DNA from: Gordius sp. MW1
Lineage: Eukaryota > Nematomorpha > Gordioida > Gordea > Gordiidae
Assembly (NCBI GenBank): GCA_964036665.1
Contig: OZ038527.1
Span: 18,560,221-18,624,220, forward strand
Direction: 5' to 3'
DNA length: 64,000 nt
This document shows positions 31,403 through 52,353 of this stretch, piece after piece. How positions within the stretch are numbered: the first letter of the stretch is position 1; the number at the start of each line of letters is the position of its first letter. The notes under the pieces were generated by a model. That model did not search any database. It had not been told where the DNA came from and saw only the letters and a program-made list of their open reading frames with translations. The translations under genes and the position numbers were made by a program.

Positions 31403-31405
31403 AAA

Positions 31406-31590
31406 TACGCCCTTCGGGCGTAACTGGGGGCTTCGCCCCCAGACCCCCTTGGGGGCTTCGCCCCCAAACCCCCTGCTGGGGGCTCCGCCCCCAGTCCCCC
31501 GGTGGGGGCTCTGCCCCCAAACCCCCGTTGGGGGCTACGCCCCCAAACCCCCATCTCCTGGGGGCTCCGCCCCCAGACCCCCGGAGAAGG
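31406..31590. repeat. Array of GC-rich hairpins (unit A)
   Basis: It opens with the hairpin ACGCCCTTCGGGCGT, followed by six GGGGGCTNCGCCCCC-type hairpins about 25-30 bp apart, separated by CAGACCCCC-like spacers. It is sharply GC-rich in AT-rich surroundings. Open frames on both strands (Gly/Pro/Arg repeats) result from the repeat and are not called as genes. Confidence 0.9.
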
Positions 31591-31639
31591 GGGAGAAGGG
31601 AAGAGGGGACGACTCATCTATTCTACGTATAAATATAGC

Positions 31640-31680
31640 TTATTTGCTATGCAATTTATGGGCGAGAAAGGTGAGAGGGG
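31640..31680 (+). repeat. End motif of the hairpin/minisatellite family (unit A)
   Basis: TTTGCTATGCAATTTATGGG is followed by CGAGAAAGG. The same phrase occurs at 14420-14450 (reverse), 54235-54265 and 61325-61350 (reverse). An identical copy lies in unit B at 34980-35020. Confidence 0.8.
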
Positions 31681-32019
31681 GCTAGAATCCCTATAGGGGG
31701 TAGGATAATTACTAGGGTTTCCCCCTTGGCTAAGACAGCCAACTATGTAATATATTTTTAACCTTATAAAAGTATATATATTTTTTTACTGGGTTAATAT
31801 ATTTCATTTAATTAGATTGTGATTTCATAGAAAACCTAAAAAGAAAGTTAAAAAGAAAAAATATATACCCTAATGCATAAATAATTATAAATAAATGAGT
31901 TTAAATATTTTATTTTTACTTTTAAATGTTTTGCCCCCCCCCCCAATCCAAAACCTGGCTTCGCCCATGTATAGAGATAATAAGCCTAATATCTATCGAC
32001 CTTGAAGGTACAAATAAAC

Positions 32020-32115
32020 ATCGGCGTAGCCAGTGGGTGGCAAAGAGGGGCAGTTGCCCCCTTTAAATCCATAATTAATTTGAAATTTATTAAAACTTTG
32101 GCTAAAATTTTTAGG
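32020..32115. mobile_element. Truncated CATGGGCGTAGCCAG-family MITE (unit A)
   Basis: Begins CATCGGCGTAGCCAGTGGG and continues with the family interior CAGTTGCCCCCTTTAAATCC. A separate opposite end, CCTGGCTTCGCCCATG, lies just upstream at 31954-31969. Both are repeated in unit B near 35293-35455. Confidence 0.65.
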
Positions 32116-33084
32116 AGAGAGCGTTGTGCTAAATAACAATTTTATTTGCATGACGTAAGCAGGATTAGAATTATAAGGGACTCTACTGTTTCTCCCCTTT
32201 CCCCTCCCCTCTCTCCCCTTTATAATAAATTAACCGATAATGTGATGTGATGCACAGATGCGCGACGCCGTCAAGTGAATTTAAAAACTTACTTTTGTTC
32301 ACTGTCATAGGCGTATCGAGGAAATATGATCAGAAAAAAGCTAATAAAAAATTTAGACCCTAAAATGTACTTGATGTCTTATGAGGTGTATGCCGCATAT
32401 CAAATTTGAAAATAAAATTTAAATATATGAAAATGGGTTAGATATTCAAAAATATGACTTTTAAATATAAGATGTAATAATAATTAGATTAATTAATAAG
32501 ATATCTAAAAATAAAATAGTATAGATATTCAAAAATGGTATAAAAAATGGGATATTTAAAAATGATCTATTAGCTTTTTTTTGAGCCCCGAAGCCTATTA
32601 CAACATCTCGTTGTTGTATAATGCCTTTTTGAATTAGGTTTAGCTGAAATAGATGAACGATTAACTAAGAAAGATATAACAAATAGCTTATATTATAACC
32701 TTGATCCTGCCTGATCTCTATGTTACCCTTCTTCTCCTACTGAATTAGTACTAACATTTTCTAAATTAAATTCTAGAATCTCGAGTGATTTATAATAATT
32801 TGTAAATTACCCTGGCTACTACTTTTCTACTACTTTTCTCCATTGAAAAGTTATTTTTTTAGGGAAGTAGTTATAAATGGAAGAATATTGTTGGAATTTC
32901 ATATTAAAATAAGGGAAATGGGATTAGAGCTATTTATCTAAAATTTAAATTTCGAGTAAAATTTATAAATTTTGAACATATAAAAATAGAAAAAGCAACG
33001 AAAAACGTAATAAAATCAATTAAAAATTTAGAAACCCAGACAATATAATTAATAAAACTTAATAACAAACATAAAAAGTTACCT

Positions 33085-34600
33085 AAGGTCATTTTTTCCA
33101 TTGGTCAGCAGCCAGCACACGGTAAAAGTGGATATAAATTCATAATAGTCAAAAAAACGAAAAAATAATTTTCGAATCACATTTTGGTCAATGGTCATTT
33201 TTTCATTGGTCAGCAGCCAGGACTCGGTAAAAGTGGATATAAATTTATAATAGTCAAATCAAAAACGAAAAAATAAATTTCGAATCACATCTTGGCCAAT
33301 GGGCATTTTTTTTAATTGGTCAGTACCAACAGATGGTCTATAAATCAATGTTAGCGAAGAAAAGGAGAAAAAAAAATTTCGATTCACATTTTGGCCAATG
33401 GTCATTTTTTTACAGTGGTCAGTAGCCAGCGGACGGCCAAAAAGTCATATTATCAATGATAGTAACAGGAACAATCATAAAAGTCAAAAAAAACGAAAAA
33501 AAATTTTCGATTCACATTTTGGCCAAATGGTCATTTTTTTCATTGGTCACTACCAACAGATACTCTATAAGTCAATGTTAGCCAAAAAAACGAGGAAAAA
33601 AATTTTACTTCATACTTTGGCCAATGGTCATTTTTTTCCAATGGTCAGTAGCCAGCGGACGGCCAAAAAGTCATATTATCAATGGTAGTAACAGGAACAA
33701 TCATAAGAGTCAAAAAAACGAGGAAAAAAATTTTACTTCATACTTTGGCCAATGGTCATTTTTTTCCAGTGGTCAGTAGCCAGAGGACGGCCAAAAAGGC
33801 AGATTATCAATGGTAGTAACATGAACAATCATAATAGGCGGAAAAAGCGAAAAAATAAACTTGGATTCACATTTTGGCCAAATGGTCATTTTTTTCCATT
33901 GGTCAGCAGCCAGCGGACGGCCAAAAAGTCTTATTAACAATGGTAGTAACAGGAACAAACATAATAGTCAAAAAAAAACCCGGGATTCGAACCCAAAAAC
34001 TGGTTAAATTAACAAAAATTAAAAGTAAACAAAAAAGACATTCGGTGCAAGACATCCACGCTTTTTTCATTGGTCAGCAGCCAACGGACGGCCAAAAAGA
34101 AATATTATCAATGGTAGTAACAGGAACAATCATAAGCGGCAAAAAAAACGCAAAAAAAAATTTCGTTTAACATTTTGGCCAAATGGTCATTTTTTTACAG
34201 TGGTCAGTAGCCAGCGGACGGCCAAAAAGTCATATTATCAATGGTAGTAACAGTTACAATAATAATATTCAAAAAAAACCCCGAGATTCGAACCCAAAAA
34301 CTGGTTAAATTAACAAAAATTAAAAGTGCGTATCCACGTTCGGTTCGGTGCGTGACATCCACGATTCCATTGGTCAGCAATTAACGGACGGCCAAAAAGT
34401 CTTATTATCAATGGTAGGAACAAGAACAATCATAAGAGGCAAAAAAACGGAAAAATAAACTTGGATTCACATTTTGGCCAAATGGTCATTTTTTTCCAGT
34501 GGTCAGCACCCAACGGACGGCCAAAAAGTCTTATTATCAATGGTAGTAACAGGAACAATCATAATAGTCAAAAAAAACCCGGGATTCGAACCCAAAAACT
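33085..34600 (-). repeat. Minisatellite array, reverse orientation (unit A)
   Basis: Type B, B and C units come first on the plus strand, followed by interspersed A and C units. This is the reverse of the 12935-14110 array. Later units are interrupted by copies of a phrase with CCGGGATTCGAACCC, AAAACTGGTTAAATTAAC and GGTGCGTGACATCCACG. The same array is in unit B at about 36424-37940. Confidence 0.88.
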
Positions 34601-34745
34601 GGTTAAATTAACAAAAATTAAAAGTAAACAAAACGGTGCGTGACATCCACGTTCGGTGCGTGACATCCACGTTCGGTGCGCACGCCGAATAGCGTGACAA
34701 AACAAATTGGAAAGTGAGCCCATAAATTGCATAGCAATTAATAAA

Positions 34746-34930
34746 TACGCCCTTCGGGCGTAACTGGGGGCTTCGCCCCCAGACCCCCTTGGGGGCTTCG
34801 CCCCCAAACCCCCTGCTGGGGGCTCCGCCCCCAGTCCCCCGGTGGGGGCTCTGCCCCCAAACCCCCGTTGGGGGCTACGCCCCCAAACCCCCATCTCCTG
34901 GGGGCTCCGCCCCCAGACCCCCGGAGAAGG
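34746..34930. repeat. Array of GC-rich hairpins (unit B)
   Basis: Identical to the array at 31406-31590, in the second unit of the tandem duplication. Confidence 0.9.
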
Positions 34931-36423
34931 GGGAGAAGGGAAGAGGGGACGACTCATCTATTCTACGTATAAATATAGCTTATTTGCTATGCAATTTATG
35001 GGCGAGAAAGGTGAGAGGGGGCTAGAATCCCTATAGGGGGTAGGATAATTACTAGGGTTTCCCCCTTGGCTAAGACAGCCAACTATGTAATATATTTTTA
35101 ACCTTATAAAAGTATATATATTTTTTTACTGGGTTAATATATTTCATTTAATTAGATTGTGATTTCATAGAAAACCTAAAAAGAAAGTTAAAAAGAAAAA
35201 ATATATACCCTAATGCATAAATAATTATAAATAAATGAGTTTAAATATTTTATTTTTACTTTTAAATGTTTTGCCCCCCCCCCAATCCAAAACCTGGCTT
35301 CGCCCATGTATAGAGATAATAAGCCTAATATCTATCGACCTTGAAGGTACAAATAAACATCGGCGTAGCCAGTGGGTGGCAAAGAGGGGCAGTTGCCCCC
35401 TTTAAATCCATAATTAATTTGAAATTTATTAAAACTTTGGCTAAAATTTTTAGGAGAGAGCGTTGTGCTAAATAACAATTTTATTTGCATGACGTAAGCA
35501 GGATTAGAATTATAAGGGACTCTACTGTTTCTCCCCTTTCCCCTCCCCTCTCTCCCCTTTATAATAAATTAACCGATAATGTGATGTGATGCACAGATGC
35601 GCGACGCCGTCAAGTGAATTTAAAAACTTACTTTTGTTCACTGTCATAGGCGTATCGAGGAAATATGATCAGAAAAAAGCTAATAAAAAATTTAGACCCT
35701 AAAATGTACTTGATGTCTTATGAGGTGTATGCCGCATATCAAATTTGAAAATAAAATTTAAATATATGAAAATGGGTTAGATATTCAAAAATATGACTTT
35801 TAAATATAAGATGTAATAATAATTAGATTAATTAATAAGATATCTAAAAATAAAATAGTATAGATATTCAAAAATGGTATAAAAAATGGGATATTTAAAA
35901 ATGATCTATTAGCTTTTTTTTGAGCCCCGAAGCCTATTACAACATCTCGTTGTTGTATAATGCCTTTTTGAATTAGGTTTAGCTGAAATAGATGAACGAT
36001 TAACTAAGAAAGATATAACAAATAGCTTATATTATAACCTTGATCCTGCCTGATCTCTATGTTACCCTTCTTCTCCTACTGAATTAGTACTAACATTTTC
36101 TAAATTAAATTCTAGAATCTCGAGTGATTTATAATAATTTGTAAATTACCCTGGCTACTACTTTTCTACTACTTTTCTCCATTGAAAAGTTATTTTTTTA
36201 GGGAAGTAGTTATAAATGGAAGAATATTGTTGGAATTTCATATTAAAATAAGGGAAATGGGATTAGAGCTATTTATCTAAAATTTAAATTTCGAGTAAAA
36301 TTTATAAATTTTGAACATATAAAAATAGAAAAAGCAACGAAAAACGTAATAAAATCAATTAAAAATTTAGAAACCCAGACAATATAATTAATAAAACTTA
36401 ATAACAAACATAAAAAGTTACCT

Positions 36424-37940
36424 AAGGTCATTTTTTCCATTGGTCAGCAGCCAGCACACGGTAAAAGTGGATATAAATTCATAATAGTCAAAAAAACGAA
36501 AAAATAATTTTCGAATCACATTTTGGTCAATGGTCATTTTTTCATTGGTCAGCAGCCAGGACTCGGTAAAAGTGGATATAAATTTATAATAGTCAAATCA
36601 AAAACGAAAAAATAAATTTCGAATCACATCTTGGCCAATGGGCATTTTTTTTAATTGGTCAGTACCAACAGATGGTCTATAAATCAATGTTAGCGAAGAA
36701 AAGGAGAAAAAAAAATTTCGATTCACATTTTGGCCAATGGTCATTTTTTTACAGTGGTCAGTAGCCAGCGGACGGCCAAAAAGTCATATTATCAATGATA
36801 GTAACAGGAACAATCATAAAAGTCAAAAAAAACGAAAAAAAATTTTCGATTCACATTTTGGCCAAATGGTCATTTTTTTCATTGGTCACTACCAACAGAT
36901 ACTCTATAAGTCAATGTTAGCCAAAAAAACGAGGAAAAAAATTTTACTTCATACTTTGGCCAATGGTCATTTTTTTCCAATGGTCAGTAGCCAGCGGACG
37001 GCCAAAAAGTCATATTATCAATGGTAGTAACAGGAACAATCATAAGAGTCAAAAAAACGAGGAAAAAAATTTTACTTCATACTTTGGCCAATGGTCATTT
37101 TTTTCCAGTGGTCAGTAGCCAGAGGACGGCCAAAAAGGCAGATTATCAATGGTAGTAACATGAACAATCATAATAGGCGGAAAAAGCGAAAAAATAAACT
37201 TGGATTCACATTTTGGCCAAATGGTCATTTTTTTCCATTGGTCAGCAGCCAGCGGACGGCCAAAAAGTCTTATTAACAATGGTAGTAACAGGAACAAACA
37301 TAATAGTCAAAAAAAAACCCGGGATTCGAACCCAAAAACTGGTTAAATTAACAAAAATTAAAAGTAAACAAAAAAGACATTCGGTGCAAGACATCCACGT
37401 TTTTTTCATTGGTCAGCAGCCAACGGACGGCCAAAAAGAAATATTATCAATGGTAGTAACAGGAACAATCATAAGCGGCAAAAAAAACGCAAAAAAAAAT
37501 TTCGTTTAACATTTTGGCCAAATGGTCATTTTTTTACAGTGGTCAGTAGCCAGCGGACGGCCAAAAAGTCATATTATCAATGGTAGTAACAGTTACAATA
37601 ATAATATTCAAAAAAAACCCCGAGATTCGAACCCAAAAACTGGTTAAATTAACAAAAATTAAAAGTGCGTATCCACGTTCGGTTCGGTGCGTGACATCCA
37701 CGATTCCATTGGTCAGCAATTAACGGACGGCCAAAAAGTCTTATTATCAATGGTAGGAACAAGAACAATCATAAGAGGCAAAAAAACGGAAAAATAAACT
37801 TGGATTCACATTTTGGCCAAATGGTCATTTTTTTCCAGTGGTCAGCACCCAACGGACGGCCAAAAAGTCTTATTATCAATGGTAGTAACAGGAACAATCA
37901 TAATAGTCAAAAAAAACCCGGGATTCGAACCCAAAAACTG
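36424..37940 (-). repeat. Minisatellite array, reverse orientation (unit B)
   Basis: This is the duplicate of the array at 33085-34600. Confidence 0.88.
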
Positions 37941-38079
37941 GTTAAATTAACAAAAATTAAAAGTAAACAAAACGGTGCGTGACATCCACGTTCGGTGCGT
38001 GACATCCACGTTCGGTGCGCACGCCGAATAGCGTGACAAAACAAATTGGAAAGTGAGCCCATAAATTGCATAGCAATTA

Positions 38080-38373
38080 AAAGATTAGAAATTCAGCACA
38101 CTTGCGAATCCTTTTCCCTCTCTATCCGAAAAATCAATCATTTTCCTTCGCTCCCTCCGTTTTCTTATCATTTTCGCAGGCGCTAGCTGCTTCGAGTTTT
38201 TTCTCTTAACTAATCTAAGCGCGTTTGCCCTTCGCATACAGTATAATTTCCCTTGCATGCCCATTTTTACGGAATTCTAAAATATTACAGAACTAATCAT
38301 TATTTTTTAACTGCAATTTCAAAATTCAGATAGCGGATCATCTCGACTAAGGAATTAGCCCTAATTTTTAAAA
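38080..38373 (+). promoter_or_regulatory. Putative 5' UTR and proximal promoter region of the FN3 gene
   Basis: Only about 290 bp separate the end of the 3.34-kb tandem repeat from the first in-frame ATG. This stretch is pyrimidine-rich (38107-38175) and not visibly repetitive. I see no convincing TATA box or initiator. A possible 3' splice site (ttttcgcag, ending at 38179) could mean an additional non-coding 5' exon upstream. Promoter activity is an inference from position alone. Confidence 0.3.
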
Positions 38374-38566
38374 ATGCAAAAAATCTATAGCGAGGAACGA
38401 CTCCCTATTCCCTCAAGCATGGCCAAACAACGGTTGGATCGACAAAATTCATCGGACTGCAAAATGAAGACCAAGCCACAAGGGCTAAATCTAAAACCAA
38501 AATTCGACTTCAAACAGTTATTATTTGCCCTAATCTTTTCCTATTCCCTATTCACCCATACGACTG
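38374..38566 (+). CDS. Nrg-like: Exon 1: N-terminus and signal peptide
   Basis: This exon encodes residues 1-64 and ends in phase 1 at the donor gtaagc. A basic stretch precedes the hydrophobic run LLFALIFSYSLF at residues 49-60. Three in-frame Met codons exist, at 38374, 38419 and 38464. The last gives a signal peptide of ordinary length (about 36 residues), so it may be the true start. The codon split across the intron completes Val65, giving HTTVQC|QQPKPED, a good signal cleavage context (inference). Confidence 0.7.
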
Positions 38567-41500
38567 GTAAGCATTATTAATTTTCAATATTTTTGTTTTT
38601 TATGAAATTTATATTAGCCTTTAATTTATTTATTTTAAACATTAAAGATAAATTTACAACATGAATGTTTAAAGTGGCACTGCTGCAGTTTGTGATTTTT
38701 TCATATTAATTTCCTTATTTATACAATTAGATAATTCTATTTTTATACTATAAGCTAAAATAGTTTTTTTTTAAATTTATATATAAGATATTTTTAATTT
38801 TTTCCATTTATCATATAAAATGCATGTATGAGCCTCTATTTGTACCCCCGATAAAATTACAAATAATCCAAATTCTTTAGAATTGATTGATATATTTTGT
38901 TAGGCTCACCTAACTAATGTTTTGTGCTTGGCATAGCAACAGCTGCTAAACAAATTGTTTTTTACTCTCCTGATAATATTACGTGTGAAAGTTCAAAATT
39001 CGTTAACCTCCATTTAAATTAGGGTAAACATAAAAAAAAGCTGTCATACATTTTATAAAAATGTATTAATTGTTATTATATATGCCATAAGTTAGTTCAA
39101 AATAAATGATAGCTTCTCCTTTTTCATGAGTCAAATTTAACACCTGAATTTCATATACCTAGTTAGGGGTTGAACAAGGGCTGTTTCTTTAAATCCTTAC
39201 AAATTTTATTATTACAATTAGGGACAACTAAGTTTCACTACTCCTTACGACCGTAGCCAGTTTTGGAATTAGAGGGGGGCAATAATGATTTAGGGATGTT
39301 TAGGAAAGGGCAAAATGAACATTTTTTGAAATTTTAGCCATAATTTGTGGCGAATTATCTACACCCTTTTGATGGGCTATATAGTGAAAGTGTTTAATTG
39401 TTAGGCTTGTAAAAATGTCAAAAAATGTTTTTAAATAAATTTGGTTCTGAACATAAAAATTGGTAAGGTGGGTTAACAAAAGTACTTGGATTAAACGTGC
39501 TAAGAAAAATTGAGACTTTAAATATCATTTATTATTTATGCTTTTAGTTTAAGAAATGAATGTTTTGATAAATATTAATTATGACATAAGTCACACGATA
39601 ATATAGCTAGGTACTTGTCTCTAATTTAAAATTTCACTTAGGACATATAAACTAGAGTTAAAACTTATAATTCGCGATCTCAATCGCATAATCGCGTTTT
39701 CCTCACAATTTACTCGTCATTTTAATATCTCATGTAAACATCACGTATAATTTTAAATGCTAACTACTCTACTTCAATTCTAATTTGATCCAACCCATAA
39801 ATTAGGTTAGGTTAGATATTTTTGTGATTCTAAGTCTTTCTAACCTTCAACACCATACCATCCATCCTAGCCCTAATTATGTGTTAACAGTTTCACACAA
39901 CCTTCGATTCGAACCTTTGGGGCACCCATATGGTCTATCTTAATTGGCCTATTAACCGCACGGTAACTAAGCCTCGTTTGGATTTGAAGGCTTTAACAAA
40001 AACTTCATCCATAGTCTTGAACATTGCCGGGAATTGAATGATTGGCAATAAAATGACATATTGACTCGTCGATTAAATCAAAATTAATAATCTATTTGAG
40101 CCTTGGAAAATTGATATTAAATTTGTAAGAGATGTCAAGGGAAGTGTTTTAGCAAAGGGGAAAAATTCAAATACGAAGTAAACATTTGTTGAAATTCTAT
40201 CCCTTTTAATTTTACTTATTCTTACCGCGATATGACACGCGGCAGATCCGCAATCTCGGAGATGTATATCACAGTCACGATTAGATTACTTAATCAATGG
40301 CTTCAATTTGTTGGAGTTAAGATCTCTTTTGCAGATATATTTTAAAAGTTGATTTTGATTTTTAAGAATATTGCAATTATTTAATTTTATTTATAATAAA
40401 AACCAAACCAACCAAAGTTGTTAACATGATTATGCAAGAGTACATTTCGCTCTTTGCATAAAAGGTATACCAAAATAAAATAGGTATTATTATAAGCATC
40501 ATGGGCGTAGCCAGCTTTCAGATTAAGGGGGGCGAGCAAAAAATATTCGCCGAGAATAAGTGAGAGAGCAAAAAAAAAAAAAAGGTCGCCAATTTTAATT
40601 AGGGGGGAGCGAAACACTTCCAATTTTTACAAAAATTACATTAAAAAAAAAGAAAAATTCTCATTTAGGGCCTACGCCCATGATAAGAAGCATGTTTTTA
40701 AACAGAATGAAAATTTTATAAATCATTAGTTCTAGTTTTTAGTGTAGTAAAGCAACAAGCAGCTATTGATAGGAATATATTATTATGTTTAGCTGCAGAA
40801 TTAACAACTTAACTTAACATAACATTTCCACCTACTCTCAGTCGTGTTACTTCATTTTTATAAATAACCCTCTAGTAACATCTGAAATCACAGAGGCCTA
40901 AATTCTTTGATTTAAAATGGACCCCACCCCCTTTAAATTATTTCTGCACTTCTTTTTGAATGGCATAGCCAATTTTTATAAAGATTTACAACGCTCTATA
41001 ATAAAAGCATAAATGGTTTTTAAATAATACATTTAAACAAATTAATTAAATGATATACACGAATAAAAAATATAAAAAATATAAAAACGCGCTATAACTA
41101 AACGGATGGCATTGATCCGTGTATGGAAATCGTGTTGGATTTAACGATTTCCATTGTGATCTTTTGCCTGCTTTATTTTCTTGATTAACTGAGCGCGTTG
41201 CCCATGGGTAGAGATCCGCACGGGATACGCTAGAGGGTTTTAAGTCGGGCTAATATTATGATCGGGCCTTGGTCTCGAGTCAGACCTAATGGGCCAGCTT
41301 GACCCAAAGCAACATAACCATTTTAAAAAGGATTTTTTAATTAACTCAACTCATTTAAAAGGAATAAACATTTCCAGGGTACATTAATTTCTTTTTTCAA
41401 AATCCCCCTCCCTGTCTTTAATTATTTTTTGCTTAATAAAATATTTTTTAACTTCTTATAACTTTTAAAGTATTTTTTTAAACCTTTCAAATTTTAAACA

Positions 41501-44500
41501 TGTGTTTATAAAGGTTTTAAGATTGGTGGTATAAATTTTGATATGAATCTAATCAACATTACAAAATTTATTAACGATTTTTTGGACCCCCATTTTTATT
41601 TTGGTTATTTAGAGCTTCCCCTCATTTTACCTCTTCACATCATATACCTTAAAATAAATCAAAATAAACGTGATTTTTTATTAAAAGAATGTTTAAAATG
41701 TATTAAAAACACAAATTGTAAAAGATATCATCAAACGAATACGTGAGAGCATTCGTGGGGTACACAGGACCCCTCTGGCCAAAAAGATGCTATATTTTAA
41801 AAAGTAATGGGCCAAAAGTTATAAAATTTTTCTCAAACTTAGTTCTTGGTAAAATATTAGGCTACTGAAAGGGCCAGATCAATTCGCTTTTAAACGCGTT
41901 TTATATTTAAGTTTATAACTATCGTAGGGTCCGTGGTATCCCACTACTGCTCTCGAGGGTTAAATGAATATAAAGTAGTTGGAAATTAATAAAATAATAT
42001 TTTTTAATCAATAAATTGCATAGCAGATTTATAAATTTTTCCGTTATATAAAAATTGTAATTTATAAGTTAGATTATTAAGTTCAAATAATTTACTTGAT
42101 TAAAATATAGCAAGATAAACTGTATTCTTCGTTTATTATCATACTTATCTTTGTTATAAATTGCCCCCTAAAATCTAATTTATATATATTTATATGTAAA
42201 AAATAACTTCAAATGTGAAATTTGACTAAGAGTTATCAAAAATTAAAAAAATTCCGGGCATGGCTTGGAAGAATTAAAAGTTATAAAGCTCGTAGCGAGG
42301 CGGTCCTGCAAGTAACACTCGAGAACTATTATTTCTCACTTGATCTAATTGAATTTGTCACCGAAATTTAAAAATCTAGATATAAAAGGATTTTTGAAAA
42401 AAATTGATATTAACATTTAAATAATGGTTTTGCAAAACAATAACCTTCTAAGGACGTTGCTTTATGTCCATCCAAAAATTACAAAATAATGTTATAAGCG
42501 TGGGGTCAATCCCATCTTTTACGGGAGGAAAGTCGAAGGCAAAGTTAGGCCCTAAGAAGACTAACGATGCCATCTAGTATTTTTCCAAATTAACATTTAT
42601 AATGCTAAGAAAACCTCCATTTTTTTGTCGCCTGGCGGTAACGCTAAATTACGACTTTTATTTTCGATAAAAGGCTTAAGGGTTTTATGTGCGAGTATAT
42701 GCCTAGATCGCTTGAAGTTAACAGTTTAATTATTTGACGTATACTTACTTCCTGTTTTGCTTTAAGCTTTTCGCCTAAGTTGTGTTAAGTAAATAAAGAG
42801 TGTTGTTGGTTAATAGGACACGATATTTTATTTTAAATAATTTTTTTCACTTAAATTTTACCCTGCGTGTAGCTATAGGGATGCTGGGTGGACATATAAT
42901 GGATAAAACATTAAATGAAATAACTTTGATTTAAAACTTTCAAGATTATCCTTATATTCCCTCTTTTTTCAATATAATTTAAAATCCATGACACCAACGC
43001 CCTAAGGAACATGTAAATTACCAAAAAAAATTAACATACCTAAATTTCAAACTATGCCCTGAGGTTTATTTTTTAAAGCTATTGATTCGGACACTCCATA
43101 CTATTTAATGTGTAGTGTATAAAAAACGAGGAGTTTATAGAGATTAAAGTCTTTTAATGTACTCTTAAAATTATTTATCTTTTACCTTAACTGTAATCTA
43201 AATCCCCTCAATCAATCGTTATTTTAGTTCAATGCCAACAACCAAAACCCGAAGATATGACTCCGGAACCACCAATAGTGTCAGAACCACCGCGCGAAGT
43301 TAAATTAGCTGAATGTAGTGGGCGAAGTGCAACAGTAACGTGGCAAGAACCAGGACAAACACAAGTCTTGAAATACGTTGTCCTGGGACATAGAATAGGA
43401 GCCGTCAAAGAAGATTTGGAAAAATTAGGTAATGATCAAAAATTAATTGGAATTCTATTTGTTTTAAATTTAATACCAATAAACGCGGTTATACGATGAA
43501 AATTGCTAGAATTTAGTGTTTTAGATGAAGTGATCACTAAAAAAATTTGCTAACAAAACATTTTTGGTTAATTTTATACTTTATCGCTTTATTAACTTTT
43601 AGGGCCCGTCTTAATATATGATTCAACTTCATGGCGCCAAATTTTTGTTTGTCTAAATTTGCTATATACATGTCCTGGTATCAACAATTTTAGTTTAGTT
43701 ACCATATGAATATGCATTAAATAAGCGTAATTAAAGGATAAATATTTGTTTTATGAGCAAAACCACAAAAATAGAACAAAAATGACGTGACGCTCGTATT
43801 AAGACACGGCTATATTTTAACATGCATTCGCTTTTTGAATCTAGATTCAAAATCGCGTATTAAGACGCACCCTTAGATGTGCTAAGGCGGGAAAGGTAAA
43901 TCCGACCCCCTTATTAAGTAATTTAGCAAAATCGTCAGTCATTTTAACAAATCATTAATGAACTTTATGCCCTTCCCTTGACTTAAAATCCTGGCTACGA
44001 TTATTTTTAGCCAAAACAATATAATTATATTACCTCAACGGGTTAGCATTCTTTATAATGTTTAAAGTTGAAAAATAAGCAAAGTTTTTTTAAAATTTTT
44101 AAGAATTAAACCTTTGTTGTTGCGTTAAAGCTAATTTAATACACTCAATTAAAGTAACTTATACATATCCTTTTGCCTTTATCATGTAACACCACCCCAC
44201 CGAAGGCGGCCAATTTCATGCCCTACATGGTGTTGACAAAGAACGGTCCTAAAATATATATTTATAAACCGAAACCTATCTTTAATGATGTAATTATCGA
44301 TTACTCGCCTTAAATTAATATAGGACACCTAATGATCAATAATACTTAAGCGTGCCCGTATTAGCAGCACTATCAAAGTTCTTTTGTTAATGACCCAATA
44401 GTCTCATTTTGTCGTAATCCATAATTAATATTACAAATAGGTTTGATGAAAAAATCTAATCTCTTCTTTTAGCCCAAATGTTCAAGGCTGATGTGATTAT

Positions 44501-47500
44501 TATCAATATGGATCCACTCGACCTGTCTTTCATTTCTATATACAATAACTTTCAAAATATCTTGCGTTTTTATTATTTTTTGATGGGTCATGCTCATGAT
44601 AGATTGTTTTTGGGCTGTGCCTAAATATATTATGCAGAATTGTTATCTAACTTCAAAATAAAAGCCAACTTACGTGGATAATGATGGACAAAATATAATT
44701 TATTAACTTTTATTAAAGTTGAACTGGTCACCTTTAATTTAACAACCTTGAAACTAAGTTCAGAAGTAAGTTTAGAACACATGGGTTAGTGGACTTAATA
44801 ATTACCTTTGGGTTTAGAGGAAATCGAATAAAGCTCATAATAAATCCTTAACTTCAAATTTTTTTAAATTTTTTCGTTTACCTATGCTACTTTTAAAAAT
44901 TGTTAATACCACAAAAATAAAGCTTGAAATTCTCTAATGTCTCCTTTGATACAGGTGAAGTACCGTTCCCTGGTAATTCTTACAGGACCGACCTAAGACC
45001 TGGGAGCAATTACACCTTCAAAGTTGCTACAGTTAATAATGACGAATTTTTCAGCGAGCCCAGCAACGAAACCGAAGTTTGTAATACGCCAGCCGATGTC
45101 CCAGATCACCACCCCTTAAACGTTGTCGGCAAAGGGACCGAGGCTAATAACATGAAAATTAGCTGGGAGGTAAACAAAAATTACATTTTACATTACACCG
45201 AATGACTATTTATAACGGCTATCCTTATGGATGTAGCCAATTATGGGCGCAGCCAGCATCGGAATTAGAGGGGGGCAATAATGATTTAGGGAGGGGCAAA
45301 ATGATCATTTTTTGAAATTTTAGCCATATTTTAATAAATCCGCCTCCCTGCCCCCCCCCCCGGCTACGCCCATTTGGCTAATGGAAAAATAGGTGGACCA
45401 AAATTTAAAAATGAGCGAAAGACAAAATGTTAATTGCGTGTTTTTCTAGCCAAGTAGCATAAAGCAATATCCTTTCCGATTTTAATGCTTCTTCCTGCCC
45501 TGAAACATTTTCAATAGTGCCCTATTATAAGAAGGAAAGGGGGGTCGAATTAAAATGTAGGACACATAGAACATAATCAAAATATTTATTGGTCTAGAAT
45601 TTTATTTATATCAAGTTTTTGCACTTATTGGACTTTGACAAAAATTAAATTCTATGAATTTCAAAGCCTAGATTAAAACGGTAACAGAGTATTTCATGCG
45701 GGGCGAGTCAAGCATAGAATACTTAATTTCAATTAACTTTTACTGATAAATTATAAGCTTTAAAATCAAGGGCGTAGTTAGGGGGAGGCAGGGAGGGGCG
45801 ACTGCCCTCCCCCTCCTAAATCCAAAAAATTGTTGAAATTTATTAAAAGTATAGCTAAAATTTTAAAAAATAATCATTTTGCCCATCCCTAAATTATTAT
45901 TGCCCTCCTCTAATTTCAATGCTGGCTGCGCCCATGTTTACAATCAAACTGTTCTTAATTTCGTAAATCTAGGATTTATCTGTGACAAAATTATATATAT
46001 TTAATGGCTTGACAGGAGCGAAATATATAAAGCGGGCCCCTTTAAAAGATTAAACCTCTAGCATCGTTTTTCATCTAAAATTTGCCATAAAATGTTATAA
46101 TCATGTTTTTGCGAATAATTCTCACCTATTTATTTATTACTCCAGGCAATGAAACCTGAAGAACATAACGGCCCTGGTTTTTATTATCAAGTCGAATATA
46201 AGCCCCGAGATCAGCCACAATGGGTGTCCGAAGACATTACCAATGCATCAGCAACGTCATTCACCGTTAAAGGTTTAATTAAAAATATTAAAAAATTTAT
46301 CAAATTTTCAAAAAATATTTATAAATCATATAACTTTAGTAAAAATATTACTCTTTGAAGATGTTCCTTTTAAATAAATGCCAAAAGATGCCTATAAATG
46401 TAAAAACACAGTTGCCGTTTTAACAGTTAATTTTGATCTTATGATTCCCCATAAGTAAGAGGTCAAACATTAGATAAAGGCGGCTCTTTGTATAAAATTT
46501 ATTTTTTATAATCTTCTTAACCAAAAAAATCGTTTTCCATATTAGATGGTTACTACAGGAAATAACACATGCGCCACAATGCTAATATTAAATAAATTAA
46601 TAAACTTTTAACTCAAATCTTATAAGATAGTTATTTAGACTTAACTCCAATTCACGTCACATGGGGGGCGGGAGTAGTTTAGTTAGAAATTAAGAGAAGG
46701 CTGAATAATAACTTCAAAATTTTGAATCTTATTAAAATTGATTTGAGATTTTTATTAATATGCTTGCAAACATTTGAAGTATCTTAAATAAATTAATTAT
46801 AAGAGTCAATTTAATTTTAAGTGCAATCAGGTTTTTGATAAAGGCCGATTTGTAATAATTGCTATATTTGTAATCTAATAAATTTTTTATAAATAGATAA
46901 TTTTAAGAATTTTAAGTCAACTTTATAAAGAGTGAGGATCAAGTTAAGCAATAATATATAATGGCAGTTAATTATTTCAGAGTCATACTTAAAAATTTAA
47001 TAAATGAAAAGTTTTAAGAATTATTTTGTAAAAACGCAGGCAATAAACGAGTTAACTTTGTAATTTTAAATAGTTACATAGCCATTTTTCTGACATGTTA
47101 ATCAACCACGCGGCAGCTCAGGTTCATTTACAGTTTTGCCGTCCATGCTGAGTAAATAAAACTTGAAGTTTATTGCATTGGTGTGATTTTATATAATTGA
47201 TTTTTTACCGAATGACCTCATTCGCCTACCGATCATAATGAAATTTAAATCATTTATAACGATAAATGTTACGCAAAAAAAGGTTGTTTTAGCATTACTA
47301 CTTTTACTAAGTCTCAGGGAATAACAAACGCGAAAGTTGATTAGGTAAGTTAAAATTCCGAAAGGAAAACCCTGGTCTGGTAAAACGCTTAGTGGTAAGG
47401 GGCCATAGACTCGCTGTATATTAGCTTGGCAAACTAAATTTATGAATGTAGAGTTAGGTAAGGGTTTATTGAACCGCTTAATCGATCTTTAAGTTTAAAT

Positions 47501-50500
47501 CCCCAAATTTAGGGTAAGTATTTTTCATAGGTTTTGTAAAAATTAATAACATAACAAATTCATTATTGATTCTAGAAATGTATCTTATTATTTTCTACGC
47601 GGTTTTAAATAAATCTTATTAGAAAGGAGCTAATAAATTATATGTGCCGTATTGTAACGAGTTACTAAAAAAATGGCATTAGAATTAATTTGAATGGGTA
47701 ATTTAAAGTCTTATTTGTAAAACTCTGCCATGCATTTTTTCACATTTTTGATGATAACATACAGTTAAGGTTTACCTAATTTTATTTTAGTTTTGCTGTT
47801 GCTTTTTAAAATAAAATACTCGGTTTCTGAAGAGAGAGATCGGGAATTTTGGTCATTTCTGGTTAAATTTTTTCAAATAATAATTAGTTAAGTCGGGTTC
47901 GGTTAGAAAGTAAAAAAATTTAGGTCGGGTTTGGGTTGAAAAGAATCGACTTTGGAAGATCTAATTTAAACATTAAAATAATTTTCGAACCACAAAGCCT
48001 AATTTGTCCGAATAAACTAACAATTTGAATAAACTATAGATTACTTCTGAAATACCAATATTTTACATATTAGGGTTTTTAGTTTCGTAAAGTATGGTGG
48101 GACATAAAAATCTATCGTTGCATATGCAAGGTTTATAATATCAGATCTTTATATGGTGAGCTCTCCTTCAATTAGTTTGAAAGATCTCTTTTACGGACAA
48201 AAATAAATCTTTTTTTTCAAAGTTTAATATATGTTCATACTCAAATTATAACCGAAACTTCAATTTATTTTAGATTTGGCACCCTACACACCATACGATA
48301 TACGAGTCAAAGCTATGAACAGTTTAGGGGCTGGAAGAGGCCCTGCCTTAATAGTGGCCGGATATTCGGGGGAAGACAGTACACCAAATTTATATACTTT
48401 ATTAAAATTTTGAAAAGTATATAATTTTCTAAGCGAGGCTTTTAATCATTGTTTCCGTTTTTTTTAGTACCAACGGCAAAACCGACTAATCTAAGGTTGG
48501 AACAGGTTATCGATGGCAACAGAGCTACTATTGCTTGGGATCCTGTCCCGCTCGAAGGCATGAAAGGCCCATTAGTTGGCTACAAGGTCTCTTTAGCAAT
48601 ATTAACACAAAAAATTGCAAAGTTTGAGGCATTTATTTTTTCTAATCTTAGTGATCTTGACCCCTGAATAATTTATAATTTAATTTAAAATACAAGAATA
48701 TGATTGAAATATAATTAGAGATTGTCAAAAAAGTTCTTTGTCAAACTGAATGTTAAAATTTATAATTATAAGTGCCTTTAAGGACCAGCACTAAATTTTA
48801 AATTCAAGTTTTTTATGCCCCATTTATCGGGATGTAAATTTTGATGTAAGGTTCGAATATATAACGACGTCGATGGTTTGGAAAACGTTACAGAAATCAA
48901 AGTTCCCATGAATATACCCCGTGCGACCATAGATAAATTGCGCCCAATGTCAGAAAATAGAGTAACTATTGCCGCTTCCAATAACAAGTTTGATGGACCC
49001 GCAAGCGATGAATTACTCATATCTACACCAGAAGCTGGTTAAATTTTAATAAATTTTTTGTCCTTCCATGGTTATTTATCTATCGAAATCGATTATTTTA
49101 AATTTTATATTACAAATGACCGCTACTTAAATTGACTTTTAGTTCCCGGCAAGCCTACGCAATTACAAGGCATACCTCTGGGTATTAATACGGCCAGGGT
49201 TGTGTGGAAAGCACCAAAAAATCCGAATGGAAAAATTCTTGGTTACCGAATAATGCAATTTCCAAGTACACATCTCATGTTTTTATTTCCCGTTTGATAA
49301 AAAGTTTTCATTTATCATATTTTATCCAATTTTAATTTTTAAATCTAAGTCGACGAAAGTAACAATCCATTGGCCCCCGAGCGCGAAGCAGAAGCCATAC
49401 GCGACCCTAACCAAAATGAAGCCTTCATGATTAGTAAGCCAAAATTTATACATTTTAATATAATTTATCGTCTTTATTATTTTTGACATTAATACTATGT
49501 AATGACGAGTATTTCGTATTTATTCAACATTTCCAATCAGTAAATATTGATCAATGATTGGCAGATTATTTATATCATTCACTAATACATAGTATGATTT
49601 TAAAATGTTAGATTTAACACCTGGAACACGATATAACGTCTCTGTGCGGGCTGCAACGGCTGCAGGTTATGGAGACCCCGCCAGTGTTGTCATGGCAACA
49701 ACCCGCGAGGGCGGTAATATTTCAATATTCTAATATGTTCTTTACAAATTAAAGAAAAATTTATTCAATAATATAGCACACTACCTAAGTAGATTGGGTG
49801 TAGGCTTCTAAAACATTTTATAAAACAGTAATAAATGTATAAAGTTATTAAACGAAATTAATGGATAATTTATGTCATATTTTTAAAACGTTTTTATTAT
49901 TTATATTTAGTCCCGGATAAGCCCGAATTCGAGGTTCACGTCATGGATGGGGGATTCAATGTTTCTCAAAAGGCAACAGCCAACCCCGGAGCATTCTTTT
50001 ACGTCATTTACAAAAAAGAAGGTATGAAATCTTAATTCCATTAAATTGTTCTTATTATAACAGTATTCTTATCAAAATGCTATTTTGACGCTTTAAAATG
50101 TTTTAAAAATTCCTTATTGGCTTAAAAATTTGCACATCCTCTATAAATGAACGCTGACAGAGCAAATATTGAATTGTGAAATTATAAATATGAAAATTTT
50201 AGTATATTCTGCGATAAACTTTAAATTATTTTGGTTTAAACCACGTTTCATTATTAGTTGCCATTTAAACATGATATAGGGGAGACCCTCGGGCTAGAAT
50301 AACCATAAATTGTTAAATGTGCGATTAAAAAAACTAAATATTGTTTTTTTTGTTGGAATGTCTTTTTAAGGTCATTTTTTACATTGACAAAATTTGAGGA
50401 AAAATCCATTAGTTTTTTATTAATTATTGTTAAAAAAACAAGAATCTTAAAAATTTCCCACCATTTTGGCAATCATATATGTCAATTTATTATTGTAAAT

Positions 50501-52353
50501 TGGTATAATATAATTTATTAAAATATAGGCGGAGAATGGGTTGCTACTACCATGGTTCCTGCTTTGAACTGGAAACTGATCAAGAATGTCAGCGAAAACA
50601 CGAATTACGAAATTAAAGTGATCGCCGTCAATGAAAATGATTCCGCTACAAGTGATTCACAAACCGTCATGCTACCCCTTGAAAGTAAAAAAAATGAAAA
50701 TGAATTATTAATTCCTACGAAATTTGTGGATTAGCAATTTATAACAATTGCACTAACCAAATAACGACTTACATCGAGTTTTATATGTTTCTGTAATAAC
50801 CAAAGTTAAAAAGGGATTAGATTTTATTATTATTCATTATCATTAAATGGGATTTTCAATCTTACCTTAAATCTCCGTTTAGTATTCATTTATCCTTTAT
50901 TTAAATATACGATGCCCAAGAATCGGCGAATAAGATAATAGTCGAAAGAATCTTAATTTTTATAAGAACAAAGAGAAAGATGTATATCAAGCGCGGATTG
51001 ACATCATATATTAATATGAACAAAAGAATCCCATAAAGAAAAGAAACGCGTTTGTATTACTACGCGTAAATAATGATGGGAATACTCGCTGTGTATCATG
51101 TGATGTATTCCTACACGTAAATAAATCGCGTAGAGAACGATGGGGAGAGAGGGACTAACACGCACGTAAATAAATCTATATCAAAATTAGTACACAGATG
51201 TTACACGGGGTTTGTGTGTGTGTGTGAGTTCACAGAATAAATGCCCCGTACGCTCCTTCAATCATAATTGCCTTGCCAGCGCAGCTGGTCTTACTATGCG
51301 TAATTAATCGTGGAGATGAGGGTGGGGTAAGGAAATACTCGTGTAGTAAGCAACTACAACAGTTTCTAAATTATTATTAATAAGGTAAATTCAGAATGAA
51401 ACTTTAACCTGGTATAACAAATAAAATATGGTGTGAATTTAATTGATCCATTTATCTGTCTTAATCTTATTGATTGCTTATTAATTGATTATTTACAGGG
51501 GCTCCAAATAGACCCACTGACGTAGTGTTGGAAAGGTGCGATCCTAAAGAAACTAGAATATCTTGGGATATAAAACCTATAGAACATGCACCCACGACAC
51601 ACTTTGTCATCGAACATGAGGACAATCGCAACGGAGAATGGAAGGTTTTAGAAGGTTTGTCATTCATTTTTAATAACAAATCTCAAGGCTTATTTAAAAC
51701 TTTCAGATAATGTTTTGTCTAGAAGTTTATTTGAACTATTAACAACCCATCAAGCCATGGGCGTAACCAGGGGGAGGCACGGAGGGGCGACTGTCCCCTT
51801 TAAATCCAAAAATTCTTCGAATTTTATTATAATTATGGCCAAAATTTCAAAAAATTATAATTTTGCCCCTCCCTAAATCATTATTGCCCCCTCTAATTTC
51901 AATGCTTACTACGCCCATGCATCAAGCGTAACTCACTTTTTTTTAAATACATAATAAGTGTTAATATTTTTGATGGTATATTGCGGACCAAATTCCATTA
52001 AACTCGACATAGAAATACTTATAAATATTATTAATGCACATTTTGTGTAATGTGCAATAACAGATAAAGTGCCTGGCGACAAAGACGAGTTCACAATAAC
52101 CGATTTGGCTGAGGGTGTACACAAATTCAGAGTCATAGCAGGCAATAGGAATGGCGCTAGTGGAGCGAGTGATGCTACGGAGGAGTGTGAGATAATTAAA
52201 CATCCCCAGGAAGGGGACGAGGGTGAACATGAAGGACACGGTGGAGATGAGGCTAAAGTCGCTGGAAAATCGAGTGCTATTCAATTGAACGCTAGATTTA
52301 GTCAATTGTGTTTGGTATTATGCATTTTGACCGCCGTCATTTTCGTTCGTTAA
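38374..52353 (+). CDS. Nrg-like: FN3-only, probably GPI-anchored neuroglian/L1CAM-like cell-surface protein (14 coding exons)
   Basis: The coding exons are 38374-38566, 43228-43428, 44955-45169, 46146-46272, 48274-48378, 48468-48586, 48851-49037, 49143-49265, 49350-49433, 49612-49713, 49911-50021, 50529-50684, 51499-51654 and 52064-52353. Every junction is GT/AG, the phases match, and the total of 2169 bp gives 722 residues. Residues 49-60 are a hydrophobic signal core, with likely cleavage near residue 67. Six FN3 domains follow at about 84-179, 180-280, 281-382, 383-485, 486-574 and 575-670. FN1 to FN4 read like Drosophila neuroglian FN3 repeats: SGED ends FN2, FN3 has N(N/G)KFDGPAS, and FN4 has PNGKxxGY. 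At least eight N-glycosylation sequons point to an extracellular protein. Residues 671-692 are an acidic Gly/His linker, and residues 707-722 form a hydrophobic end without a cytoplasmic tail, as in GPI signals. The expected role is adhesion at neural or epithelial membranes (inference). Ig domains, a transmembrane helix and the FIGQY ankyrin motif of neuroglian are absent. Confidence 0.85.
39246..39355. mobile_element. Truncated CATGGGCGTAGCCAG-family MITE in intron 1
   Basis: Contains CGACCGTAGCCAGTTTTGG and AGAGGGGGGCAATAATG, then the AAATTTTAGCCATAATTT interior. The opposite end is missing. Confidence 0.6.
40500..40682. mobile_element. CATGGGCGTAGCCAG-family MITE in intron 1
   Basis: CATGGGCGTAGCCAGC opens the element and CCTACGCCCATG closes it. 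The flank ataagcat on the left and ataagaagcat on the right are an imperfect duplication. Confidence 0.7.
43228..43428 (+). CDS. Nrg-like: Exon 2: mature N-terminus and first half of FN3 domain 1
   Basis: Residues 65-131. The exon opens in phase 1 after attttag and closes in phase 1 at gtaatg. It holds a Pro/Glu-rich mature N-terminus, then the A to C strands of FN3-1 with the core Trp103. Cys94 is the first of a Cys pair also seen in neuroglian FN3-1. The preceding 4.66-kb intron shows no Ig-domain exon. Confidence 0.85.
43602..43873. mobile_element. PIF/Harbinger-like MITE in intron 2
   Basis: Ends GGGCCCGTCTTAATA and TATTAAGACGCACCC are flanked by TTA (43599-43601, 43874-43876). Subterminal GATTCAA...GGCGCC resembles the copy at 25566-25835 read from its other end. 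Confidence 0.72.
44955..45169 (+). CDS. Nrg-like: Exon 3: second half of FN3-1 and start of FN3-2
   Basis: Residues 132-203, from acceptor gatacag to donor gtaaac, ending in phase 0. It contains the FN3 tyrosine-corner motif LRPGSNY (145-151), the sequons NYT and NET, and Cys174, the partner of Cys94. The linker ADVPDHHPLNVVGKGTE matches the FN1/FN2 linker of neuroglian (DVPxxxPxNVVGxGTE). FN3-1 and FN3-2 share this exon, whereas the later domain borders coincide with introns. Confidence 0.88.
45243..45373. mobile_element. CATGGGCGTAGCCAG-family MITE in intron 3
   Basis: ATGGGCGCAGCCAGCATCGG to CCGGCTACGCCCAT, with a GGGGGGCAATAATG interior and long C run. No clear target duplication was seen. 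Confidence 0.7.
45779..45936. mobile_element. CATGGGCGTAGCCAG-family MITE in intron 3
   Basis: AGGGCGTAGTTAGGGGGAGG to GCTGGCTGCGCCCATG. The flanks (taaaatca / ttacaatca) are similar but shifted, suggesting a decayed duplication. Confidence 0.65.
46146..46272 (+). CDS. Nrg-like: Exon 4: middle of FN3 domain 2
   Basis: Residues 204-245, from phase 0 acceptor ttactccag to phase 1 donor gtttaa. It carries HNGPGFYYQVEYK, which corresponds to the C strand of neuroglian FN3-2 (HNAPNFHYYVSWK), and the sequon NAS. The gtttaa donor is weak by consensus, but the reading frame joins perfectly to exon 5. Confidence 0.85.
46273..48273 (+). other. Intron 4 (2.0 kb)
   Basis: AT-rich with no recognised element. 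A stretch with GCTTAGTGGTAAGG (47389) and TTTAAATCCCC (47493) faintly recalls tRNA-derived boxes, but the spacing is too long for a tRNA. Confidence 0.4.
48274..48378 (+). CDS. Nrg-like: Exon 5: end of FN3 domain 2
   Basis: Residues 246-280. It begins after ttattttag and ends at gtacac in phase 1. The tyrosine corner is LAPYTPY, followed by IRVKAMNSLGAGRG. The domain closes with VAGYSGED, the same VxGYSGED that ends FN3-2 of neuroglian. A 2.0-kb intron precedes it and an 89-bp intron follows. Confidence 0.88.
48468..48586 (+). CDS. Nrg-like: Exon 6: first half of FN3 domain 3
   Basis: Residues 281-320, phase 1 to phase 0. It contains KPTNLRLEQV and the core Trp304 in IAWDPVPLEGMKGPLVGYK. This matches the neuroglian FN3-3 pattern (APTNFTMRQI ... 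WTPVSEESVRGHFKGYK). The donor is gtctct. Confidence 0.88.
48851..49037 (+). CDS. Nrg-like: Exon 7: second half of FN3 domain 3
   Basis: Residues 321-382. The acceptor is gatgtaag and the donor gttaaa, phase 1. It carries VRIYNDVDG, the sequon NVT, then NNKFDGPASDELLISTPE, equivalent to the NGRFNGPPSAVIDFDTPE end of neuroglian FN3-3. The usual tyrosine-corner Tyr is Arg here (LRPMSENR). Confidence 0.87.
49143..49265 (+). CDS. Nrg-like: Exon 8: first half of FN3 domain 4
   Basis: Residues 383-423, phase 1 to phase 1. It begins VPGKPTQLQGIPLGINTARVV, has the core Trp404, and then KNPNGKILGYRI. This parallels neuroglian FN3-4 (VPSPVQGLDAYPLGSS ... WKKPLYPNGKLTGYKI). The donor is gtacac. Confidence 0.87.
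49350..49433 (+). CDS. Nrg-like: Exon 9: central part of FN3 domain 4
   Basis: Residues 424-451, phase 1 to phase 1 (acceptor atctaag, donor gtaagc). It is charged, with APEREAEAIRDPNQNEAFMI. It sits where neuroglian has ERREYDPHITDPRVTRMKM. This 84-bp exon is too short for a standalone ORF call and is recognised from the frame-consistent joins on both sides. Confidence 0.82.
49612..49713 (+). CDS. Nrg-like: Exon 10: end of FN3 domain 4
   Basis: Residues 452-485, phase 1 to phase 1. It contains the tyrosine corner LTPGTRY, the sequon NVS and the end ATTREG. The following domain starts with the next exon, so the FN3-4/FN3-5 border coincides with a phase 1 intron. Confidence 0.85.
49911..50021 (+). 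CDS. Nrg-like: Exon 11: first half of degenerate FN3 domain 5
   Basis: Residues 486-522, phase 1 to phase 1 (acceptor tatatttag, donor gtatga). It starts VPDKPEFEV like a normal FN3 A strand. The B strand lacks the hallmark Trp and reads FNVSQKATANPGAFFYVIYKK. The PGxxFYVxYKK part still matches the C strand of neuroglian FN3-5 (HPGTHFFTMHR). The domain is therefore shortened around the B strand. Confidence 0.82.
50277..50480. mobile_element. One-ended piece of the GGGGAGACC element in intron 11
   Basis: Starts TAGGGGAGACC and CTCGGGCTAG, then reads like the reverse of the 19500-19690 end of the nested element (GTTGGAATGT, AAAAACTAA blocks). No second end was seen. Confidence 0.5.
50529..50684 (+). 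CDS. Nrg-like: Exon 12: second half of FN3 domain 5
   Basis: Residues 523-574, phase 1 to phase 1 (acceptor aaatatag, donor gtaaaa). It carries GEWVATTM, a NVSENTNYEIKVIAVNENDS stretch with sequons NVS and NDS, and a TSDSQTV strand. This fits the E to G strands of an FN3 domain, comparable to neuroglian YEFRVVSVDG ... ESATQEI. Confidence 0.83.
51499..51654 (+). CDS. Nrg-like: Exon 13: first half of FN3 domain 6
   Basis: Residues 575-626, phase 1 to phase 1 (acceptor atttacag, donor gtttgt). It contains APNRPTDVVLERC, the core Trp597 in RISWD, and HAPTTHFVIEHED. The latter resembles neuroglian FN3-1 (RAPILHFTIQFN) more than FN3-5. Cys588 pairs by position with Cys668 in the next exon. Confidence 0.85.
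51756..51919. mobile_element. CATGGGCGTAGCCAG-family MITE in intron 13
   Basis: CATGGGCGTAACCAGG to CTTACTACGCCCATG, with a perfect 8-bp duplication catcaagc (51748-51755, 51920-51927). It occupies 40 percent of the 409-bp intron. Confidence 0.88.
52064..52353 (+). CDS. Nrg-like: Exon 14: end of FN3 domain 6, acidic linker, GPI-type C-terminus and stop
   Basis: Residues 627-722. It finishes FN3-6 (TITDLAEGVHKFRVIAGNRN, then Cys668). Next is a Glu/Gly/His linker, KHPQEGDEGEHEGHGGDE. A small-residue site (GKSSA, 695-698) lies about ten residues before the hydrophobic tail LCLVLCILTAVIF, which ends in Arg and a TAA stop at 52351-52353. Small omega-site residues, a short spacer and a terminal hydrophobic run are the hallmarks of a GPI-attachment signal. 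A C-terminal transmembrane anchor with a one-residue cytoplasmic end is the alternative. Confidence 0.85.

Follow-up and report, generated by a model that had tools for sequence, protein, structure and literature searches.

A predicted 14-exon gene of the horsehair worm Gordius sp. MW1 is, in our judgement, probably a neuroglian (L1 family) paralogue, old and strongly diverged, that has been reduced to a GPI-type rod of FN3 domains and is likely to serve as a heterophilic ligand or co-receptor; its anchor and its function are both predictions. A first-pass annotation of the same DNA had proposed a neuroglian-like gene cut down to its FN3 domains, and had suggested that the product modulates full-length neuroglian or is an adhesion receptor of its own lineage. 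The structural half of that reading stands (neuroglian-like, Ig-less and FN3-only, the start resembling a signal peptide and the end a GPI signal), while the functional half is conjecture. The stretch of DNA analysed, hereafter the window, comprises 64,000 nucleotides (C1:18560221-18624220, C1 being the contig that carries it) of an assembly of 211.8 Mb in 12 contigs.

Gene model and predicted ends

The gene occupies positions 38374-52353 of the window on the forward strand, and its exons, rebuilt here from the sequence, reproduce the splice-consistent model first proposed: 13 introns, GT-AG throughout, with fitting phases and no internal stop, giving a coding sequence of 2169 nt including the stop and a product of 722 aa (Table 1). 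At four donors (those following exons 4, 6, 7 and 13) the intron starts with something other than GTA or GTG, so individual junctions of the model may be off. GC content is 0.453 in the coding sequence and 0.289 in the introns, with exon 1 by itself at 0.409. Pfam fn3 matches the product at 189.7 bits (E 9e-57), five stretches passing independently, and nine N-glycosylation motifs lie beyond the signal peptide.

Table 1. Exons and C-terminal signal of the predicted gene, with the basis for each. Positions are those of the window; a slash marks an intron.
Feature	Position	Strand	Basis
Exon 1: longest start; probable signal peptide from Met at 38464 (MKTK...QLLFALIFSYSLFTHTT)	38374..38566	+	hydrophobic core, chance scan, GC 0.409
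Exon 2: linker and FN1 first half; phase-1 start as at the Ig6/FN1 boundary of C4 neuroglian	43228..43428	+	domain comparison, intron match; FN HMM alone weak (E 1)
Exon 3: FN1 second half and FN2 start	44955..45169	+	tblastn FN1 E 1e-4; domain comparison; FN HMM
Exon 4: FN2 middle	46146..46272	+	tblastn E 0.003; intron SWE/AMKP = SWT/PMPQ, phase 0
Exon 5: FN2 end (...GYSGED)	48274..48378	+	tblastn FN2 E 1.3e-7
Exon 6: third FN3 domain, first half	48468..48586	+	tblastn E 0.009; intron comparison
Exon 7: third FN3 domain, second half	48851..49037	+	tblastn E 1.8e-5; GYK/ phase 0 intron common with C4
Exon 8: FN4 first half	49143..49265	+	tblastn E 1.1e-4; intron comparison
Exon 9: FN4 middle	49350..49433	+	frame and splice sites; FN HMM misses exon 9 alone
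Exon 10: FN4 end	49612..49713	+	FN HMM E 0.2
Exon 11: FN5 first half; B-strand Trp lost (by eye)	49911..50021	+	tblastn E 0.15; FN5 best match neuroglian FN5 E 3.6e-10; intron comparison; FN HMM alone weak, E 9.7
Exon 12: FN5 second half	50529..50684	+	FN HMM E 6e-4
Exon 13: FN6 (extra domain) first half	51499..51654	+	tblastn with FN1 E 0.006; FN HMM E 2e-4; domain comparison
Exon 14: FN6 remainder, acidic/His-Gly linker, C-terminus, stop	52064..52353	+	FN HMM misses exon 14 alone
GPI-type signal: GKSSA (small omega region), spacer, hydrophobic FSQLCLVLCILTAVIFV, one Arg, stop	52264..52350	+	prediction by rule

A cleavable signal peptide and a GPI signal, as expected of a GPI-anchored surface protein, are both predicted. 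Exon 1, in which the first-pass annotation had placed a signal peptide, has when read from its Met a basic start, a hydrophobic core and a phase-1 donor, and lies 4.66 kb from exon 2. Signal-peptide-like first exons ending in phase 1 occur twice in the 43 kb upstream (once within 10 kb) against once in 64 kb on the opposite strand, a chance scan that puts the candidate modestly above background and makes the predicted signal peptide plausible. At the other end, GKSSA and a spacer are followed by 17 hydrophobic residues, a single Arg and the stop, this hydrophobic stretch being the sole TM-like segment of the product. A simple rule for GPI-like ends was passed by two of 303 ORFs (at least 60 aa, 114 kb), the exon-14 ORF probably among them, although the rule was devised after inspection of this very C-terminus; the anchor is a predicted one.

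A separate full-length neuroglian

A genome search with the product returned its own exons and, next, three matches at C4:5613231-5610049 (-), with 29-40% identity and E from 2e-9 to 7e-6. The ORFs at that locus and upstream of it encode six Ig domains, FN1-FN5, a TM helix with a basic flank and an SFIGQYGRR tail, so the genome holds the separate full-length neuroglian that the first-pass annotation had proposed to look for. This gene spans about C4:5618331-5608772, a reading that runs from the six Ig domains to the tail. With Drosophila neuroglian the FN1-FN2 pair of the C4 gene scores 175.9 bits and that of the window gene 97.1 bits, and judged by sequence the C4 gene is the clear counterpart of the fly gene. 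Past its 3' end an open frame of ~515 aa, hAT-transposase-like by eye, lies at C4:5605282-5603735 (-).

Descent of the FN3 domains

We compared 17 FN3 domains (six from the window gene, five from C4 neuroglian, two each from Drosophila neuroglian, contactin-4 and the worm's own contactin-like gene, and none of titin type). Each of FN1-FN5 of the window gene has its namesake as best C4 match, in order (E 2e-10, 5e-24, 2e-14, 1e-12 and 4e-10), at 27-40% identity to the worm's own neuroglian. The domain-by-domain match proposed at first was thus right in its order and too short in its extent, reaching FN5 rather than FN4 and being followed by a sixth FN3 domain. FN2 scores 79.7 bits with Drosophila neuroglian FN2 and 77.8 with C4 FN2 (43% and 40% identity), while FN1 is 28% identical to the worm's own neuroglian and 25% to that of Drosophila. 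The best matches of FN6 within the set are C4 FN1 (40.4) and Drosophila FN1 (40.0); its PDB list is headed by titin with neuroglian second, and outside the window the genome search next matches it to C1:661811 (E 0.006), a titin/twitchin-like locus, so that its origin is unsettled, FN1-like though it is. A Cys pair in FN1 (residues 94/174), present also in the FN1 of C4 and Drosophila neuroglian, and a like pair in FN6 (588/668) would be expected to form disulphides.

In a tree of the single domains, FN1, FN3, FN4 and FN5 cluster with the domains of the same number (supports 90/78, 98/95, 87/75 and 86/83), FN2 falls just outside the C4-Drosophila pair, and FN6 is placed in an open cluster that also contains FN1 and FN5; two of 14 inner branches are firm, and FN1 and FN5 stand on long branches that carry a long-branch warning. 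A tree of FN1-FN3 with neuroglians, L1 and contactins places the window gene on the neuroglian/L1 side: in seven rows, some of them partial, and with midpoint rooting, it groups with C4 and Drosophila neuroglian (84/89, the order within the group unresolved), human L1 comes next, and contactins stand apart (86/85). Searched as a whole against PDB, the product ranks contactin-5 first (99.5 bits), then L1 (97.8) and neuroglian (94.8), and FN1-FN2 alone gives Drosophila neuroglian 97.1 bits against 87.7 for contactin-4.

Intron positions point the same way. Six introns of C4 neuroglian FN1-FN5 are common to the window gene, identical in place and phase, two in phase 0 (SWT/PMPQ = SWE/AMKP; GYK/) and four in phase 1 (GED/V = GED/I; TPEG/T = TPEA/V; GYRIFYSK/V = GYRIMQFP/I; YRIK/G = YKKE/G), and no further intron was seen in this stretch of C4. 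The C4 splice sites were placed by GT/AG and likeness, without cDNA and with the window gene in view, and the fifth shared site (GYRIFYSK/V) is the least sure, since the 45-nt stretch there could also be read through in frame. Another four introns of FN1-FN5 are present in the window gene and absent from the worm's own neuroglian (in FN1, in FN2, late in FN4 and between FN4 and FN5), and the FN6 intron occupies the position of the FN1 intron (a split codon, then E/K-V-P). The presence of introns argues against a retrocopy. Taken as sequence evidence, the positions and phases of these introns, the likeness and order of FN1-FN5 and the position in trees with small row sets and long branches are what descent from an L1/neuroglian gene predicts.

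The missing Ig head, transmembrane helix and tail

Genome-wide fn3 and I-set searches missed the gene's own FN3 exons, so their silence on the window proves little, and a dedicated HMM scan was therefore run. The area searched was the window with 30 kb upstream and 20 kb downstream (114 kb, with no N in the sequence). Across it, tblastn with the C4 domains recovers FN1-FN5 in register (best E 1e-4, 1e-7, 2e-5, 1e-4 and 0.15) and nothing below E 0.35 for Ig, 1.0 for TM or 0.64 for the tail, the TM search being one for likeness to the neuroglian TM exon, with TM exons unlike it falling outside its reach. An Ig HMM of 12 domains likewise found no Ig exon in the 114 kb (best E 4.6). As a control, an HMM of six non-neuroglian Ig domains was run on the C4 gene: of its ten Ig exons it detects seven with E no higher than 0.04, and nine once the limit is raised to 2.2, two of them seen only at E 0.6 and 2.2 and with two false rows at that level. 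Of the 13 FN exons in the window, an FN HMM made from C4 recovers eight with E no higher than 0.004; with the limit at 9.7 the yield rises to 11, accompanied by seven false rows. Given these detection rates a lone, very divergent Ig exon could escape, six Ig domains hardly.

No second neuroglian-type Ig head was found elsewhere in the genome among the best candidates scored: of 41 matches ten are C4 neuroglian, and the other 31 (E 1.4e-7 or weaker) either align with the contactin-like gene at C4:21.06 Mb or are scattered over other loci. The absence of six Ig domains, TM and ankyrin-binding tail, claimed in the first-pass annotation, is thus upheld across the 114 kb, and neither upstream Ig exons nor a downstream neuroglian-like TM/FIGQY exon, either of which would have made this a part of an ordinary neuroglian gene, appeared in that DNA. 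With three architectural features of L1 proteins (Ig, TM and FIGQY tail) lacking from the DNA searched, the gene should not be called L1CAM.

Genomic surroundings and other observations

The window is rich in repeats. A 3.34-kb tandem pair (31400-34741 / 34740-38080, 99.9% identity) stops ~290 bp before exon 1 and reflects either a duplication that happened very recently or an error of assembly, and a 714-bp tandem duplicate (26350-27063 / 27056-27769, 99.6%) contains a hAT dimerisation fragment in two copies. A reverse-transcriptase fragment (PF00078, 9718-10086, minus strand), LINE-like by eye, has an inverted copy nearby that is 79% alike (9462-10699 vs 6475-7674). A dispersed, partly tandem repeat family occurs at 12.9-14.1, 33.1-38.0, 54.7-55.2 and 58.2-59.3 kb, with ~76-95% identity between stretches.

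Elsewhere in the assembly, an array of closely alike Ig domains at ~537 bp spacing (C7:14846018-14866657) is by eye a titin-like or UNC-89-like locus, and the arthropod cuticle family PF00379 has no match in the genome, in a search that gave no match in any control genome either and so says little. COX1 has 24 genome matches, including the mitochondrial contig C12 (14,798 bases), where it reads through with the invertebrate mitochondrial code, and nuclear copies or pieces on C8, C5, C1, C3 and C4, one of which (on C8) scores 408.2 bits against 410.5 for the mitochondrial gene. C12 carries 28 pairs of inverted repeats (minimum length 25 nt, maximum spacing 400 nt; 12 pairs within the first 10 kb, 16 beyond; 21 perfect, some overlapping), none of them within the COX1 match; perfect inverted repeats of such scale within mitochondrial genes are described for Nematomorpha (PMC6649704). 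ARAGORN with bacterial settings reported no tRNA on C12.

Alternative explanations

A competing reading makes the window gene the horsehair-worm counterpart of nematode LAD-2 with its head lost, which we consider possible though short of an even chance; as an account of origin it is compatible with a reduced neuroglian paralogue, and the probabilities of the two overlap. Brugia LAD-2 is described with a signal peptide, 6 Ig and 5 FN domains, a TM and a tail of ~28 residues (PMC9239158), the four FN1-FN5 intron sites absent from the worm's own neuroglian would fit an old copy, and the role of clear counterpart to Drosophila neuroglian is already filled by the C4 gene. The six Ig domains, TM and short tail of LAD-2 are, however, not what the window gene displays, and its place among the neuroglians is left open by an FN1-FN3 tree whose rows do not include LAD-2. 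That we are dealing with an ordinary L1 gene whose Ig exons upstream and TM/tail exons downstream were missed, or with a short isoform of one, seems unlikely. Exon 2 does begin at the phase-1 site that follows Ig6 in C4, the 5' exon is a predicted one, and the Ig control overlooked one exon in ten and caught two more only at weak E; against this stand an Ig HMM and tblastn that were both negative over 114 kb of sequence free of N, and a genome search that returned no second neuroglian-type head.

Decay, whether as a pseudogene or under relaxed constraint, is improbable: the long branches of FN1 and FN5, the lost Trp of FN5, the repeat-rich surroundings and a 3.3-kb tandem duplication that ends just short of exon 1 would suit it, but 722 codons stay open over 14 exons at an identity to the worm's own neuroglian that implies long divergence with the frame intact, and cysteines and glycosylation motifs are kept. 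Contactins have six Ig and four FN3 domains. A contactin identity, despite the lead of contactin-5 for the whole product, is disfavoured by the tree and by the best matches of FN1-FN2, and we rate descent from a contactin or some other GPI-anchored FN3 protein, rather than from L1, as highly improbable: the GPI-type end speaks for it, whereas five domains match neuroglian FN1-FN5, contactins stand apart in the tree, FN1-FN2 has Drosophila neuroglian as its best PDB match, and a separate contactin-like gene exists at C4:21.06 Mb (by eye). Gene transfer from host to hairworm has been reported, and FN2 is slightly more similar to Drosophila than to the worm's own neuroglian; yet the gene has thirteen introns, six of them at sites of the worm's own neuroglian, to which its FN1 is in turn slightly closer, and acquisition from an arthropod host is the least probable reading of all.

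Proposed mechanism and closest known systems

The reading that we favour, a neuroglian paralogue reduced to an FN3 rod, would start from an ancestral L1-type copy that lost the exons for six Ig domains and for the TM/ankyrin-binding tail; we infer loss, rather than that these were never joined to it. The signal-peptide exon would then splice at phase 1 directly onto FN1, five neuroglian-type FN3 domains would be kept in order, a sixth added, and a GPI-type signal would end the chain. The Ig head of L1 proteins makes homophilic contact, as stated for neurofascin and in a model of LAD-2 (PMC9239158), and the neuroglian/L1 tail binds ankyrin (PMC2346466). With head and tail both gone, the usual homophilic contact would not be possible and ankyrin would not be gripped, so that adhesion of the homophilic/ankyrin type is not expected.

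What such a rod may do is suggested by related proteins. In the nematode, the last two FN3 domains of SAX-7 are likely enough for LECT-2 binding, by co-precipitation (PMC5079751); this cleaved C-terminal fragment is, like the product described here, an FN3-only piece of an L1 ectodomain, but it arises by cleavage and not from a separate gene. In Drosophila, axon stalling is rescued in part by the artificial NrgGPI, an L1 ectodomain that carries a GPI anchor and no tail (PMC2346466), although this protein is man-made and retains the Ig head; in the wing, what neuroglian or its GPI version does depends on EGFR dose (PMC11592701). As FN3 parts can bind alone and a GPI-linked neuroglian partly works, a GPI-held FN3 rod, presumably transcribed, anchored at the surface and bound to a partner there, would most likely be a heterophilic ligand or co-receptor, or alternatively would modulate neuroglian in cis, by competition for the partners of its FN3 half. 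LECT-2 as the exact partner is unsupported: its domain type (PF01551) has no match in the genome at E 0.001, a threshold at which split exons can escape.

Among whole proteins, neuroglian/L1CAM (the C4 gene; Drosophila Nrg, 1cfb; human L1, 8afo) shares with the window gene the order of FN1-FN5, the FN1 Cys pair, the six C4 intron sites and the tree position, and differs in the Ig1-Ig6, TM and FIGQY that went undetected here and in lacking the extra FN3 and GPI-type end. LAD-2 (Bma-LAD-2), as described in PMC9239158, is likewise a second, non-canonical L1-type gene, in a sister phylum and with no long cytoplasmic tail, but retains six Ig domains and a TM helix. Contactins have membrane-near FN3 domains and a GPI anchor, the latter described for contactin-3 to -6 (PMC9239158) and predicted in the window gene; they differ in domain make-up, and their sequences group apart.

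It is tempting to speculate that horsehair worms, or nematodes and horsehair worms together, made of a second L1 gene an independent FN3 rod with a lipid anchor. Such a rod would be encoded in the genome where other animals obtain L1 stalk fragments by proteolysis, and would act as a ligand or decoy for the FN3 partners of neuroglian, although we hold this fuller account to be rather unlikely. In the open-licence literature we found neither an earlier Ig-less, FN3-only L1 gene nor adhesion genes of horsehair worms. Homophilic Ig contact and ankyrin binding are regarded as the core of L1 function. A gene without both, keeping five FN3 domains and one extra over a long divergence, would be a natural split between the function of the stalk and that of the head, and would point to a heterophilic role for FN3 domains that might extend to full-length L1 proteins. 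It also adds to the little-studied genomes of horsehair worms a gene to set alongside nematode SAX-7 and LAD-2.
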